From Diphasiastrum complanatum (taxonomy: Eukaryota > Streptophyta > Lycopodiopsida > Lycopodiales > Lycopodiaceae), in contig CM055096.1 in assembly GCA_029204225.1 (NCBI GenBank), positions 38,199,623 through 38,263,622 of the forward strand: DNA of 64,000 nt, given 5' to 3'. The notes under the pieces are model-generated. The model made no database searches. It was not told where the DNA came from and saw nothing but the letters and a program-made list of their open reading frames with translations. The position numbers were made by a program, and so were the translations under genes. Position 1 is the stretch's first letter. Each line of letters starts with the position of its first letter. This document shows positions 48,660 to 63,359 of this stretch, piece after piece.

Positions 48660-50210
48660 GGGAATTAACTTTTGCCCCCATCACAGTAGTTGAATCAAGA
48701 TCTGATGAAACTTCTCTGAGACTTGCGAGGGTTAGTTTTGAGCCGGCTATCAAAAATTGAAGATATTTGTTAAAATCTAGCACTTTTTAGGACTGTTTCT
48801 CTAAGATTTCAAGATATGAGTGTTTGTTTTATACCAAAATTTGATAATAGTTGAAAACTGGTATAATCCAGCTATTACCAATATGGAGTGAGTTTCAAAC
48901 TGTCAGATTAAGAAAAATTAAGAGAACAGGGTCATTTTTAGTGTATTTTTGCCCATTTTTAGCGGTTATTTGTGGTTTTTCTGATATTTCTTCAGATCGG
49001 AGGAGATTTAACCTTTTTGCTTCACAATCTAGCTGGATCTAGACTAGATCTAGGTAGTATGAGGTTTGCAAAGGTTCTTGATGGACGGTTTTTTTGCATA
49101 ATTTTGAGAAAACTCAGTTTTTGAGCACTTTTCAGCACGTTTTCTTAGATCTTTCTAGATTTGTCCATTGGATCTTCACAAGAATTTCACAGAAGCCAGA
49201 TCGGGGTCAGATATAACTAGAAAAATCTCACAGAAGGTTAACTCAGAGCAAATGTCAAAAAATCAAGAAAAAAGTGTATTTTTTTGGGTGTTTTTTGCTA
49301 TTTTTGAAAGTTTTCTATCAAATCCTAGAGAGATAACCTTCTCCAAGATGAAATTAGCCTTCTTTAATACAGATTAAGCTAAATTCAGGTAGGCAAAGGT
49401 TATTTCCCAGGGGATAGAGAGAAAATACAAATTTTATGGCTTTTTTTGCTATTTCTGGCAGTTTTCTCTCAGATCCTAGAGAGAGAACGTTCATCGAGAT
49501 GATAGTAGCCTTTTCTGATACAGATTAGCTAAATCTAGATGGGCAAAGGTTATTTCCCAGGGGATGGAGAGAAAATACAAATTTCATGGCTTTTTTGCTA
49601 TTTTTGGAAGTTTTCTCTGAGATCCTAGAGAGAGAACGTTCGACGAGCTGATAGTAGCCTCTTTTGATACGGGTTAAGCTAAATCCAGGTGGGCAAAGGT
49701 TGATTCCCAGGGGATGGAGAGAAAATGCAATTTTTATGGGTTTTTTCACTATTTTTGGCGGTTTTCTCTCATATCCTAGAGAGATAACCGTTGCCGAGCT
49801 GACAGTAGCTTCCTCTGATACAGATTTAGCTAAATCCTGGTGGGCGAAGGTTATTTCCCAGGGGATGGAGAGAAAATACAATTGTTATGGGTCTTTTTCA
49901 CTATTTTTGGCAGTTTTCTCTCAGATCCTAGAGAGATAACCTTTGCCGAGCTGGCAGTAGCTTTCTATGATACAAATTTAGCTAAATCCTGGTGGGCGAA
50001 GGTTATTTCCCAGGGGATGGAGAGAAAATACAATTTTTATGTGTTTTTTGGCAATGTATTCCGGTTTTTTCAAAAAACGGTTGGGAATTAACCTTCGCCG
50101 ACTTTCATGTAGGTTTTGAACAGTGTTCAAAAGGTACTGTCAAAGGGGCGAAGGTTAGTTGTGGAGCAGTACAAAGTTATTGCCTCTAATATGTTTTTCC
50201 CGCCTATTTT
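48660..50210. repeat. Satellite-like tandem array, 150-152-bp period
   Basis: The word AAGGTTATTTCCCAGGGGAT and its variants recur with the GG of AAGGT at 49236, 49398, 49548, 49698, 49849, 50001 and 50153. Steps are 162, 150, 150, 151, 152 and 152 bp. Weaker copies extend to about 48660. The central five units are similar to each other. Overlapping plus frames (49664-49939, 49840-50091, 49992-50189) repeat WAKVISQGMERKYN-like peptides and are by-products. Confidence 0.9.
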
Positions 50211-50633: not shown

Positions 50634-51314
<681 letters not shown>

Positions 51315-52115
51315 CTATACAATATGTTTGGACAATGATTTGTACTTTAGCAGCTCCTCATCTCCATTAGGACTATACTTTTTGCTAATGCAGTAGATGT
51401 ACTGCTCCGGGAAGTGTCCAATGTAGTGCGCCAAGGAAGTATCCTTGGAGTCACTCTCTCTAGCTTTTCTCACTCTCTTTGCTCTAGCTGCATAAGCATC
51501 AATTTCAATGGCGTCCTGTGTCCCATCATCGGCTTCTGCAGTGTCACTTAGGTTAATGCTTCCTTGTGTCCCCTCCAGTTGAGTGAAATTGTACTCTTGT
51601 GGCTCATGGTGAGTCACCTCAGGAGGGTGGCCGATGTTTCGGAGCTCTGTCAAGATTCTTGCCAATGTCATTTCGCATGTGGCGTCCTCATTATTCAGAC
51701 ACAACTTTTGGAATGTATCATTAATCCTTGTGTGATCGTAGGTATTGGCTCCATTCTGCATTTTTATTAGAGCACTTAAGAGTTTTCCCTCTCGCAAATG
51801 GAGAATATGTTGTAGATCATGAAAAAAATTGTACTCTTTGCCATTGATGATGATTGGAGAGAGGCTCCTGATTTGCAGCATTGTCTCGTTTGCCTCACTG
51901 GTTTCTAGAGATGACTTAGAGAATTGCTGCAAGGAGAGTGTTCTTTCTTCTTTTTCATTTATTGGTTGCTCCTCCTCAATGTCGTTCATTTCATAGCATA
52001 GAATGGCCTCCTGTGAGTCAACAGGCATTGGAATAGTTGTATGTTCAAAAAGCAAGAATACAAAGACCATCTCACCTGAAATGATCTTTGAACCTATGTT
52101 CAACAAATTGTTCAT
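51315..52115 (-). CDS. Unrecognised 266-residue protein, divergent to the H3-like gene
   Basis: An intact ORF from ATG at 52115. Features seen are a hydrophobic N-terminal patch (MVFVFLLFEHTTI near residue 16), an acidic segment (NDIEEEQPINEKEE near residue 44), a region HDLQHILHLREGKLLSALIK near residue 98, and a basic cluster RAKRVRKAR near residue 210 that could be a nuclear localisation signal. I do not recognise the family. It carries no gag, pol or transposase motif. It faces the H3-like gene across a 528-bp intergenic region. It is one of the few long intact ORFs in the window. Confidence 0.5.
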   Translation of the reverse strand: MNNLLNIGSKIISGEMVFVFLLFEHTTIPMPVDSQEAILCYEMNDIEEEQPINEKEERTLSLQQFSKSSLETSEANETMLQIRSLSPIIINGKEYNFFHDLQHILHLREGKLLSALIKMQNGANTYDHTRINDTFQKLCLNNEDATCEMTLARILTELRNIGHPPEVTHHEPQEYNFTQLEGTQGSINLSDTAEADDGTQDAIEIDAYAARAKRVRKARESDSKDTSLAHYIGHFPEQYIYCISKKYSPNGDEELLKYKSLSKHIV

Positions 52116-52257
52116 ATTTATAGTGTTTTATTTTTATTTTTTTTGAACTATATTTTGAAACAATGGTTTACATAAATACATACTCATATCGGTTGAGTGC
52201 GCATTTTGGCACAATGAGAGGCATGAATTAAAAGCGTACGCACATATTCAATATATG

Positions 52258-52460
52258 GACACGTGACATGTGCCTATTAGTTGACAATTCATTCAGTTTC
52301 TGACACGTGTCAGAATCCTAAATGATGATGGTCACTAACGTGTCAGAGGTCAAAATAATATGATGTCACTTGTCCATGCATTTACTTTTACCAATAAAAA
52401 TTCAACACGTGGATTTCAAGTTTGACTCCACACGTGTGGGATAGCATATTTTGTATATAA
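52258..52460 (+). promoter_or_regulatory. Shared promoter with four CACGTG cores and a TATA box
   Basis: CACGTG occurs at 52260, 52304 (inside the 14-bp palindrome CTGACACGTGTCAG, 52300-52313), 52406 and 52431 (inside CCACACGTGTGG, 52428-52439). AACGTGTCAG lies at 52337. TATATAA is at 52455-52460, about 190 bp before the H3-like ATG. G-box/ABRE cores bind bZIP or bHLH factors in plants. Clustered copies suggest stress or hormone control, which is inference. Confidence 0.65.
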
Positions 52461-52643
52461 ATTTCATTGAACCCAATCATGACACTTTCTTTTTTTAGTT
52501 TTCGCATATCTGATTAGTGCGCACCTGTAGACGCCCATAAGGTACCTATTTACTATTTGTGCATAAGTCCAATATCCCATTTCATACACTTTAAATTTTT
52601 TAGCTTCATCACCATCTTTTTGTGCCTTTGTCAGATCCTTGTT

Positions 52644-53291
52644 ATGGCTAGAGCGAAGCAAACAACCAGGACTGATCAGCATCGCAATCCAGTTCAAGGT
52701 GAAGTTTCGAGCCTCAGGCCACCCGATACTGGTAGGAGAACATCGATGAGAAGAAGCCATTGGATGAGAGAGATAAAAAAATATCAAAGGTCAACGGAGC
52801 TTATGATTCCAAAGGCTCTATTCTATCGTTTGGTACGTGAAATCACCAGAGAGAATCTGGGCATGTATAATCGTTTTACAGTTTCAGCTATTATGGTCCT
52901 TCAAGAAGCCTATGAAGATCTTCAAGCTCAATTTTTTGAGGATTCCTTTCTGCTTGCCATCCATGCAAAGCGTGTCACCATTATGCCCAAAGATTTTCAA
53001 CTTTTATCTAGATTAAGAGATAGAAGTTCTGGTCTTCACATGGGTGAGGCCTCTACGACTCGTCCACCTCCAATGTATAGAACAAACCTTCCCACACAGA
53101 CGACTCGCAAGCAAGCAAAACCAAAGCGATCCCAAGACCCCGAGGAACTCATGAGGAAGGGAATACATAGTAAAAGGGCAAAGAAACATAATACTAATAA
53201 TAATGAAACTCTTAAATCTGATAGCGGATCAAGTATAGATGCAGAGGAATGCATTTTAGAAAATGTTTTCTGTATTTTCACTAATTTCTGA
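52644..53291 (+). CDS. Divergent histone H3-fold protein (H3/CENH3-like) with C-terminal extension
   Basis: The ATG at 52644 gives 215 residues; the upstream in-frame ATG at 52557 would add an unlikely hydrophobic leader. The N-terminus MARAKQTTR mirrors the H3 tail, but Lys9 is absent and the tail is short. The fold region (about residues 38-126) contains REIKKYQRSTELMI, FYRLVREI, VLQEAYEDL and the near-invariant AIHAKRVTIMPKDFQL. The RPGTVAL segment before the N-helix is missing. LIPxxxF and KDF are CENH3-like, and loop 1 (between VREI and RF) is nine residues, one more than canonical H3. A Lys/Arg-rich tail of about 90 residues follows. No intron lies in the fold. It would be a nucleosomal or centromeric variant, or a captured copy. 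Confidence 0.8.
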   Translation: MARAKQTTRTDQHRNPVQGEVSSLRPPDTGRRTSMRRSHWMREIKKYQRSTELMIPKALFYRLVREITRENLGMYNRFTVSAIMVLQEAYEDLQAQFFEDSFLLAIHAKRVTIMPKDFQLLSRLRDRSSGLHMGEASTTRPPPMYRTNLPTQTTRKQAKPKRSQDPEELMRKGIHSKRAKKHNTNNNETLKSDSGSSIDAEECILENVFCIFTNF

Positions 53292-53736
53292 TCAGGATGT
53301 ATCACAATTGCATGAGAATACCATAAATAAATTGAATGTTCTTGTACGTACTCCTTATGATCCTACTCAAGGATTTTTTGAATCTGATTACTATAATGAA
53401 TACGAGAAAATTATTAGTAAGAAAATTGATGGACTCAATGGTTACTTTTCTGTAGCTATTCCAGAGATTGATTATATAGTACGATTTCATGATTTTGATT
53501 GTAACGTTCTTAGGAAAAAAAAAGAATATGTAACAGATGTTATAATCGATGGTAGGCTGGTGCTACTGCAATACACCATTAGTCAAGATTCAAGAAAAGA
53601 AATTTTCATCGTCACTGGTCTATGCGTGGAACAATATCTAATGCACAACGATGAAGCATTGGAACTTTTGAAAAGGATTTTTATACAATGCAGTCCAACT
53701 GCAAAACTATTCGTGGTTCCTTATGCATCCAAGTAA
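53263..53736 (+). CDS. Unrecognised ORF overlapping the end of the H3-like gene
   Basis: The 157-residue ORF in the +1 frame relative to the H3-like ORF overlaps it by 29 bp. Content: DVSQLHENTINKLNVLV, YYNEYEKIISKKIDGLNGYF, IVRFHDFDCNVLRKKKEYV and LELLKRIFIQCSPTAKL. I do not recognise it. There is no signal peptide or membrane helix. Removing 53265-53295, which starts GT and ends CAG after CACTAAT, would put it in frame with the H3-like ORF, but 31 nt is below known plant intron sizes. AATAAA near 53781 follows its stop, so both ORFs may share a transcript. Confidence 0.45.
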   Translation: MFSVFSLISDQDVSQLHENTINKLNVLVRTPYDPTQGFFESDYYNEYEKIISKKIDGLNGYFSVAIPEIDYIVRFHDFDCNVLRKKKEYVTDVIIDGRLVLLQYTISQDSRKEIFIVTGLCVEQYLMHNDEALELLKRIFIQCSPTAKLFVVPYASK

Positions 53737-53814
53737 GTATAGTATTGAGACTTATTTGATGTACTGCTAAAAACTGATTAATAAAAATGAAATTTGTATA
53801 AATAAATGTCACAA

Positions 53815-53887: not shown

Positions 53888-53999
53888 TATGCTATCAAAG
53901 CCTAATATGACATTAGAGCTATTTTCATAGTTCTAAAACTTCCCACATAACTTGATCCTTTGAGTCGATAAGATTATTGTTTTCTTGTTCTATAAATAG

Positions 54000-54269
54000 T
54001 TAGAATTAAAGTAGAATCACTGTGTTACTGTACTGTGGGTCCTATCAGTGGATAAGGATCAGTTGGCCTAGCCACGAGGCAAGTCGATGGGACACGCGTC
54101 CCGCCAACGACAACCTGGGTCATGCATGAGTTGCTTGAGTGAACAACTATATGGACAGTGTAATTTCATTTTGAGAAATACAGTTGCTATGTGAGCTTGT
54201 TGTGGAGAGTGTTTTCTGTCTGTGTTACTGTGTAGCATGATCTGTGTTCCTGTGCAAAGCAAATTCTAA
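54000..54269 (+). repeat. 5' LTR, copia family R2
   Basis: 270 bp with ends TTAGAATT...AATTCTAA, followed by a primer binding site TGGCATCAGAGCC at 54272-54284. It matches 63075-63343 in inverted orientation. Confidence 0.82.
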
Positions 54270-54284
54270 GTTGGCATCAGAGCC

Positions 54285-54953: not shown

Positions 54954-55373
54954 GTGTCTACAAGACTCTCCATTGGTGCACAGAAGTGCTTAGGTGAGGT
55001 GTGCAAGATCAAGGGGATAGGCACCGTTTCAATCCAACTACCTGATGGCAAAAGTAGGATGATCAGGGAGGTACTTTACGTACCAGGTTTGAAGAAAAAT
55101 CTACTTTCTGTTGGAGTCATTACTGATCAAAAGTTGAAAGTAGAATTCGCCCATGATCGTTGCTTTGTGAAGGATGTGAACCAAAAGTTCAAAGTTATTG
55201 CGGATGGAGTAAGAGAGCCCAATACAAAATTGTACAGGTTGAATGCTACAATTACGGGGCAACACAGACTTGTATCGTCCATTCCATCGCAAACTGAGTT
55301 GTGGCATAAGAGGCTTGGTCACTTGAACTTGGGAAGCCTCAGTTTGATGAGAAAATTGGAGATGGTAACATGA
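54954..55373 (+). pseudogene. Copia protease C-terminus and pre-integrase domain
   Basis: IREVLYVPGLKKNLLSVGV near residue 37 ends the protease. LWHKRLGHLNLGSLSLM near residue 119 is the pre-integrase motif. The active-site DSG part is missing. A stop at 55371-55373 separates it from integrase in the same frame. Confidence 0.85.
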
Positions 55374-56435
55374 TTGCCTACCATAGAAGATCACTTGAAA
55401 TCGATGTGCGAATCTTGTGTATATGGGAAGCAGCATCGAGAGAAGTTCAATAAAGGGGGTGTTACAAGAGCAAAGAACATCCTGGATTTAATCCACACAG
55501 ATTTATGCGGGCCTATGAGGACCATATCCTTAGGTAAAGCCTTCTATTTCATGACCTTTATTGATGATATGTCACATAAGATGTGGATCTACTTCTTGAA
55601 GAAGAAATCAGATGTATTTGACAACTTCAAGAGCTTCAAAGCATTGGTAAAAAATCAGACAGGTAGGAAGATCAAAGACCTAAGATCAGATAGTGGAGGT
55701 GAGTACAAGTCTAATGACTTCAATGATCTTTGTGATCAATGTGGGATTAAAGGACAATTTACGCAAGCTCATACTCCTGCTCTCAATGGTGTAGCTGAGT
55801 GCAAAAATCGTACGATTGTGGAAAGTGCCAGATCTATGCTAGCTGAGATGAAACTACCAAAAGATTTTTAGTCAGAAGCATGTAGCACGGAAAATAAGAG
55901 TCCTACCATTGCCATACCAAAGATAACACCTGAGGAAGCATTTACGAAGAAGAAGCCAAATGTGAACCACTTGCGAATCTTTGGATGTAAGGCCTTTGTA
56001 CACATTCCTAAGGAAGAGAGACGTAAACTTGATGTAAAAGCTATCAAGTGCATATTCCTAGGATATGATGATCGTGTGAAGGGCTATAGATGTTTTGATC
56101 CAGTCGAAAACAAAATCCATATAAGCCGTGATGTTATCTTTGATGAATCCAAGATGTATGAAGACGAGGATGCTGAGAAGATAGACACATCCACTGGGAA
56201 AGATGGTATATTGAGGATACCACCTGATGATGATCCATTCATTGACCTTCCGAGTGATGAACATGAGGATACATCTCAAGATACTACTACTCAACCTCAA
56301 GAGACAGGTTGGAGAGGTAGGGACAAACCTTTTGGTGCAAGAAGGATTGAAGTTGCAGGTGTATTTCCAGTAAAATCCTATGGTGAATTATATTCAAAAG
56401 ATCAGACTAGTACGGTTTCACATACTAGTAAATGA
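55374..56435 (+). pseudogene. Copia integrase, one stop inside
   Basis: CESCVYGKQH (zinc binding), catalytic Asp in IHTDLCGPM and RSDSGGEY, and Glu in NGVAECKN are all present in 55374-55871. After a stop at 55869-55871 the same frame resumes (LRIFGCKAFVHIP, IKCIFLGYDD, DVIFDESK) with an acidic Asp/Glu/Thr-rich tail to 56435. The element then ends with no reverse transcriptase. Confidence 0.88.
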
Positions 56436-63003: not shown

Positions 63004-63074
63004 GTGGAAGTTAGTCTAAGTGATAGTAGTGATCACTATCAATGACTTAAAAAAGAAAATTAGTATTATTTAAC

Positions 63075-63343
63075 TTAGAATTTGCTTTGCACAGGAAAAC
63101 AGATCATGCTACACAGTAACACAAACAGAAAACACTGTCCACAACAAGCTCACATAGCAACTGTATTCTCAAAATGAAATTACACTATACATATAGTTGT
63201 TCACTTAGGCAACCCATGCATGACCCAGGTTGCCGTTGGCGGGACACGTGTCCCGTCTACTTGCCTCGTGGTGAGGCCAACTGATCCTTATCCACTGATA
63301 GGACCCACAGTTCTGTAACACAGTGATTCTACTTTAATTCTAA
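63075..63343 (-). repeat. 3' LTR, copia family R2
   Basis: 269 bp, inverted partner of 54000-54269, preceded on the minus strand by the polypurine tract AAGGGAGAGAG. It is inserted just upstream of the copy C gag. The matching 5' LTR lies beyond the window. Confidence 0.83.
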
Positions 63344-63359
63344 CTCTCTCCCTTAAAGT

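Follow-up and report, generated by a model that had tools for sequence, protein, structure and literature searches.

A Diverged Histone H3-Like Reading Frame in a Clubmoss Genome as the Probable Remnant of a Multi-Gene DNA Transposon

The histone H3-like reading frame analyzed here lies in a 64-kb stretch of clubmoss DNA (hereafter, the window, meaning the whole stretch that was analyzed) and is very probably a dead copy of one gene, gene C, of a DNA transposon that carries several genes. From its copies, gene C is predicted to encode a single protein in which a basic linker joins an H3-like fold to a unique C-terminal domain. We read this product as a chromatin protein owned by the element, a function suggested by its sequence. 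The initial annotation had proposed, among other origins, a histone gene captured by a mobile element, and inverted repeats, linked genes and the fusion in one reading frame all support this proposal.

The genome searched was a 1.74-Gb assembly of 5176 contigs, about 23 of which look chromosomal because contig size falls from 42.5 Mb (C23) to 10.9 Mb (C24). Throughout, family 1 denotes the close relatives of the window copy, family 2 the copies resembling locus L072, and family 3 a distant element located to the left of L073.

Results

Remnant of the Element in the Window

The feature proved wider than initially annotated, as the element includes, besides the histone reading frame, the interval 52116-52643 and a remnant of a second gene, gene B. 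The surviving parts are the following:

51229-53797 (+): all surviving element sequence in the window; homology to other copies begins near 51229 and stops at 53797
about 51249-52115 (-): what is left of the divergent gene B (open ORF 51315-52115); a piece of gene B from family 2 detects it by tblastn (E 4.3e-8)
52111-52112 (no strand): junction at which about 470 bp of the relatives are absent from the window (e.g., L017 492 to 964, L020 488 to 967)
52116-52643 (no strand): stretch separating genes B and C; contains four CACGTG G-boxes and, at about 52454, a TATA motif
52644-53288 (+): N-terminal portion of gene C, comprising the H3-like histone and the basic linker; 215 aa with the stop at 53289-53291 (Pfam)
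52752-53021 (+): histone-fold core, residues 37-126, with a nine-residue loop 1, LIPKALFYRLVREIT and KDF (alignments)
53022-53268 (+): basic linker from the histone fold to the second domain; a single open frame runs across this junction in relatives
53263-53733 (+): second domain of gene C, a 157-aa ORF in a different frame, alignable to family 2
53266-53272 (+): point at which a net 17 nt has been lost, breaking the fused frame in two (compared with L011, L013, L020 and L023)

Neither genes A and D nor terminal repeats were found in the 64-kb window, and the window copy is, judged from its sequence, truncated on both sides, frameshifted and dead. Family 1, to which it belongs, has the neighboring genes B, C and D in common with family 2.

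The G-boxes of the B–C interval are located at 52260, 52304, 52406 and 52431, and these are four of the nine CACGTG motifs in the entire 64 kb. The same interval contains three or four in each of the family 1 loci L020 (the same genomic place as L070), L019 and L027, six in L072 and one in family 3, which suggests a shared divergent promoter under the control of plant bZIP or bHLH factors.

With regard to the surroundings of the remnant, a retroelement lies immediately to its right, with copia-like ORFs (54954-56435) enclosed by inverted arms of about 275 bp that are 93-97% alike (53998-54272 and 63072-63345); its left arm is also present in L010. Further, a tandem repeat of about 150 bp in five copies (49291-50129) is adjoined by an AG microsatellite (around 50635-50772).

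The Histone Fold and the Second Domain

The ORF at 52644-53288 is a divergent member of the histone H3 superfamily. Its residues 5-125 matched the Pfam family PF00125 (Histone) with an E value of 2.5e-26 and 92.7 bits against a cut-off of 26.4, and solved H3 chains in the PDB matched across residues 1-126, far beyond chance. In line with the initial annotation, its translation contains AIHAKRVTIMPKD, LIPxxxF and KDF, and alignment confirmed that RPGTVAL and Lys9 are absent, while Lys4 is retained. The nine-residue loop 1 also held up, compared to eight residues in the genome's own H3; this count was made by eye on the alignment, and a regular expression delimited the loop differently between rows.

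Canonical H3 is represented in the genome by at least 13 matches (E about 1e-45), and the rows aligned (L001, L002, L004, L006 and L007) were clearly unlike the window ORF. Gene C has in common with the canonical loci L001-L008 the histone fold, the KQT tail motif with Lys4, and AIHAKRVTIMPKD. It differs from them in the identity of its core (49/85 positions in the window copy), in the absence of Lys9 and RPGTVAL, in one additional residue in loop 1 and in the fused second domain; gene C has none of RPGTVAL, Lys9, an eight-residue loop 1 and an end right after the fold, the traits of canonical H3.

A basic stretch does follow the fold, as initially described, but it is a linker to the second domain rather than the C-terminus of the protein. 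The second ORF (53263-53733) overlaps the end of the first in another frame, also as described, whereas its supposed position before the first AATAAA was wrong, as this motif (53326-53331) sits within the ORF. Neither Pfam nor the PDB gave a match to this 157-aa ORF, with profile searches returning chance-level hits only.

Relative to L011, L013, L020 and L023, a net 17 nt is missing from the window near position 53269, and it is because of this loss that one reading frame appears there as two ORFs. L013, L020, L023 and L027 each have a single open frame that extends from the fold across the linker and takes in most of the second domain; in L072 and L078, which are divergent, this frame covers the entire domain. 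The suggestion that the two ORFs form one fused protein is therefore supported, as relatives read both halves in a single frame. For the same reason, the second ORF was rejected as an independent gene and set aside as a spliced exon of the window copy.

Copy Number and Decay of Gene C

Searches for further copies, which the initial annotation had proposed, returned over a hundred scored matches per query. The window histone ORF had at least 152 matches in its own genome (the best 150 of 7118 loose candidates were scored), the second ORF at least 150 (best 150 of 4227 scored) and the 331-aa fusion of L072 at least 121 (121 of 9963 candidates scored). Each of the 121 listed L072 matches spans at least 314 of the 331 residues in a single frame; 24 are free of stops and 97 contain them.

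One copy, at C5:64.41 Mb on the same contig as the window, showed 100% protein identity, while the remaining listed matches of the window protein were at most 89% identical. As this locus is 99.3% identical over 3645 aligned positions and the identity extends into the adjacent retroelement, it looks like a duplicated segment.

The stop codons in the 121 listed copies, which are related and hence not independent events, comprised 161 TAG, 14 TGA and 16 TAA. Recoding of TAG was set aside, since C-to-T change on the codon set of the L072 gene (11 CAG, 1 CAA, 0 CGA and 1 TGG) yields mostly TAG. The excess is what C-to-T change acting on CAG, which in plants is a CHG methylation context, would be expected to give.

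Neighboring Genes and Ends of the Element

The L072 copy contains gene A (+), gene B (-), gene C (+, the histone fusion) and gene D (-). By tblastn, the arrangement of A (+) and B (-) with an H3-like ORF (+) was also observed in the divergent family 3, in which the second domain of gene C was not detected. This third H3-like ORF (L073:3212-3745, +) is strongly diverged and adjoins its own gene A and B fragments. With the same method, genes B and C were found paired in the window and in L070, and genes C and D in L071, while gene A was not found in the family 1 loci L069, L070 and L071.

A gene A exon was located 3.1-3.7 kb upstream of gene C, on the same strand, in at least 20 of the 121 listed family 2 copies. 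This is a lower bound because each list contains just the best of thousands of candidates (for the exon, the best 150 of 8661 were scored), and some of the 20 are evident duplicated segments. On large contigs, 17 linked A–C pairs were counted, whereas 2000 shuffles averaged 0.0055 and never gave more than 1.

Pfam and profile searches gave no convincing family match for genes A and B, nor did Pfam alone for gene D, and no family match of gene A names a transposase. By eye, gene A has GT-AG introns and, in this order, the motifs D (KLDESEI), D (LAGDLK) followed by HPCLYC, and E (QGMEKSH); LARDLK, HPCFYC and QGMEKSH are kept in gene A of family 3, where the comparison covers the last two motif sites. 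We read gene A as a candidate DDE-type transposase with a zinc knuckle. In the end-to-end L072 copy, it contains one in-frame stop.

Comparison of L072 and L074 with L073 and L075 showed sharp common ends, which are exact 35-bp inverted repeats beginning CATTAGAGGAG. They delimit an end-to-end family 2 copy of 8681 bp (L072; C7:71809545-71818225). With up to three mismatches, the repeat occurred 1154 times in forward and 1224 times in reverse orientation genome-wide, while the reversed-pattern control gave 0 and 0. In two of the three listed family 2 gene C copies (of 121) that lie on C1 and on C2 to 38.6 Mb, an exact repeat was present 2.3 and 2.8 kb beyond gene C; in L072 itself this distance is 2.8 kb. 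Family 2 thus has the inverted repeats at both ends and the many dispersed copies of a TIR DNA transposon; inverted repeats were seen for this family only, and the ends of family 1 were not found. As regards a target-site duplication, among three copies with flanks read on both sides, the flanks of one share 3 bp (TCA) and those of the other two share nothing.

Exact copies of the repeat are dense in two zones of C1 (about 65.0-66.7 Mb and 95.0-100.7 Mb), where several same-strand pairs are spaced about 28-33 kb apart. No listed C1 match to H3 lies inside these zones and there is one listed gene A match, at 97.15 Mb; they may be tandem large repeats or nonautonomous copies.

Selection on Gene C

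The initial annotation had taken intact frames as a sign of recent origin or selection. This fails for the window copy, which is truncated and frameshifted; constraint is observed at the level of the families. The sample is biased, as the ORFs were picked for open frames, and it includes some near-duplicate rows. For the fold, the median dN/dS was 0.63 over 55 pairs from family 1, 0.30 over 3 pairs from family 2 and 0.19 over 33 pairs that span the two families, where a mean dS of 1.8 is near saturation. The linker gave 0.96 in family 1 (53 pairs) and 0.28 in comparisons between families (27 pairs, 2 of them saturated), and family 2 had zero synonymous change in this segment. For the second domain, the 15 pairs from family 1 gave 0.54 and the 3 pairs from family 2, which contain few changes, gave 1.14; between families, the value was 0.43 (18 pairs; median without 7 saturated pairs). 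This pattern fits a working protein in an active lineage together with the decay of dead copies, and we read the element histone as being under partial purifying selection. A histone pseudogene decaying inside ordinary H3, with dN/dS near 1, had also been considered, and the fold medians of 0.19 between families and 0.63 in family 1 speak against it.

These values also bear on an explanation that we consider unlikely, namely transduplication of a host H3 gene that the element then multiplied but did not use, as with hAT elements in fungi. Such passenger genes have a fungal precedent in hundreds of copies (PMC6710886), and both the stops in 97 of the 121 scored family 2 copies and the near-neutral linker within family 1 are what a passenger would show. 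However, the fold has diverged to the point that four family 1 and 2 rows have 46-49 of 85 core positions in common with host H3; it is fused to a second domain, gene C stands beside gene B in three families, and the between-family median of 0.19 for the fold argues for constraint.

Ancestry of the Histone and Remaining Alternatives

Whether the element histone derives from H3 or from CENH3 was addressed with sequences of Arabidopsis and maize CENH3 as references. Like plant CENH3, gene C has LIPxA, a T after EI, a loop 1 longer than that of H3 (nine vs. eight residues, by eye) and the KDF of Arabidopsis CENH3; unlike it, gene C has no RPGTVAL, its tail starts with ARAKQTTR, the fused copies continue for about 200 residues beyond the fold and many copies exist within a transposon. 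At 22 columns in which H3 is invariant but unlike both plant CENH3 references, the window copy agreed with H3 at 6, with a plant CENH3 at 8 and with neither at 8, and L072 at 4, 9 and 9, respectively, compared to 10, 5 and 7 for human CENP-A and 10, 3 and 9 for Cse4. Families 1 and 2 are closer to H3 when counted against single CENH3 sequences. Overall identity is also slightly higher to H3, the window copy having 49/85 positions in common with H3 vs. 42/87 with Arabidopsis CENH3.

Trees were calculated with 18 and 22 rows, both leaving out three of the five host H3 rows as near-duplicates and the former also leaving out the family 3 row and the family 1 rows L011, L019 and L027. In the 18-row tree, families 1 and 2 grouped together (99/95), and a weakly supported branch of the best tree (77/95) set the elements, plant CENH3 and a further lineage, g, apart from human CENP-A and Cse4, which fell on the opposite side together with H3. 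A group of the elements and plant CENH3 alone was not rejected (p-AU 0.245). The 22-row tree, which is dominated by the long branch of the family 3 row, did not place the elements clearly with either H3 or CENH3. The earlier idea of a CENH3 relative is favored by the shared side of the branch, while the slightly higher overall identity to H3 points the other way; descent of the element histone from CENH3 is possible.

Lineage g, which is not canonical H3, consists of two near-identical copies on C156 and C17 (L076:689-1111, -, and L077:3-410, +). These are H3-like, end right after the fold and have long N-terminal open frames of 417 and 394 aa.

A stronger version of CENH3 descent, which we regard as rather improbable, is that the element histone came from plant CENH3 and makes centromere-like or otherwise privileged chromatin, with which the transposon would steer its own insertion or segregation. 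If true, this would be a selfish element with its own centromere-type histone.

We disfavor, as very unlikely, the view that a host family of CENH3 or H3-variant genes has merely been hit by transposons. The CENH3-like residues (LIPxA, T, D and S), the longer loop 1 and the end of lineage g (L076/L077) right after the fold are in line with a host family, but over a hundred scored copies per query with thousands of loose candidates, gene A at a fixed distance, and inverted repeats that enclose the gene in the L072 copy are not. Equally slight is the chance of an endogenous virus or retroelement with a histone: several genes on both strands would suit it, and some large DNA viruses encode histones, but the inverted repeats are short, introns are present, and none of the 17 ORFs scanned matched a reverse transcriptase or capsid. 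Searches of IMG/VR, one of them reaching close relatives only, gave no relative of the gene A exon or the second domain.

Discussion

The evidence presented here favors a multi-gene DNA transposon, of which the window retains a dead remnant, and in its sequence gene C looks like a protein that the element has kept for its own use. The simplest function is probably that of a nucleosome subunit owned by the element, directed by the second domain, which resists silencing or marks integration sites. The histone fold of H3 pairs with H4, and as the fold of gene C is complete, pairing of its protein with host H4 is likely. The protein may then enter nucleosomes or H3-H4-like complexes, where the C-terminal domain would guide it to the DNA of the element itself or to further proteins that the element encodes, and a variant without Lys9 and RPGTVAL could give rise to chromatin that the host silences poorly or that favors integration. 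We put forward this entire sequence of steps, from H4 pairing and nucleosome entry to domain-led targeting and weak silencing or favored integration, as the likeliest mechanism, but a tentative one that may well fail in one step or another.

The closest precedent is provided by fungal hAT elements with captured H3: hAT DNA transposons of this kind have been described in Dothideomycete fungi, including the amplification of H3 in Pyrenophora (PMC6710886). As in the clubmoss, a DNA transposon carries an H3 coding sequence in tens or hundreds of copies; in the fungi, however, the captured H3 is copied from the host and has either been inactivated by RIP or just been multiplied (PMC6710886). The clubmoss H3, by contrast, is strongly diverged, fused to a second domain and constrained, and its neighbors are kept across families; the gene A pieces of the element gave no Pfam match that would assign it to hAT or to the KDZ, CMCT or PHIS superfamilies. 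A second parallel is found in fungal DNA transposons that encode a TET/JBP dioxygenase, for which an escape from silencing has been proposed (PMC12730594). Here too, a chromatin-related accessory gene travels aboard a transposon, although it encodes a DNA-methylation enzyme rather than a histone, and in fungi with other transposases (PMC12730594). In a limited search of titles and abstract openings of open-licence PMC articles, no plant transposon with its own histone was described, and the word "histone" is absent from the main text of a review of gene capture in plants (PMC13317346).

To our knowledge, a histone is rarely retained among the genes of a mobile element. Transposon silencing in plants proceeds largely via H3 marks, Lys9 above all; an element that carries its own H3 variant, devoid of Lys9 and joined to a private domain, and that seems to have kept it for a long time, would be countering the host within the nucleosome itself. 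For annotation, the element is a warning, since the H3-like copies scored in this genome that differ from canonical H3 genes number well over a hundred, with loose candidates in the thousands. For biology, it may offer a natural system in which to ask whether a parasite can alter its own chromatin or pick its insertion sites through a histone.
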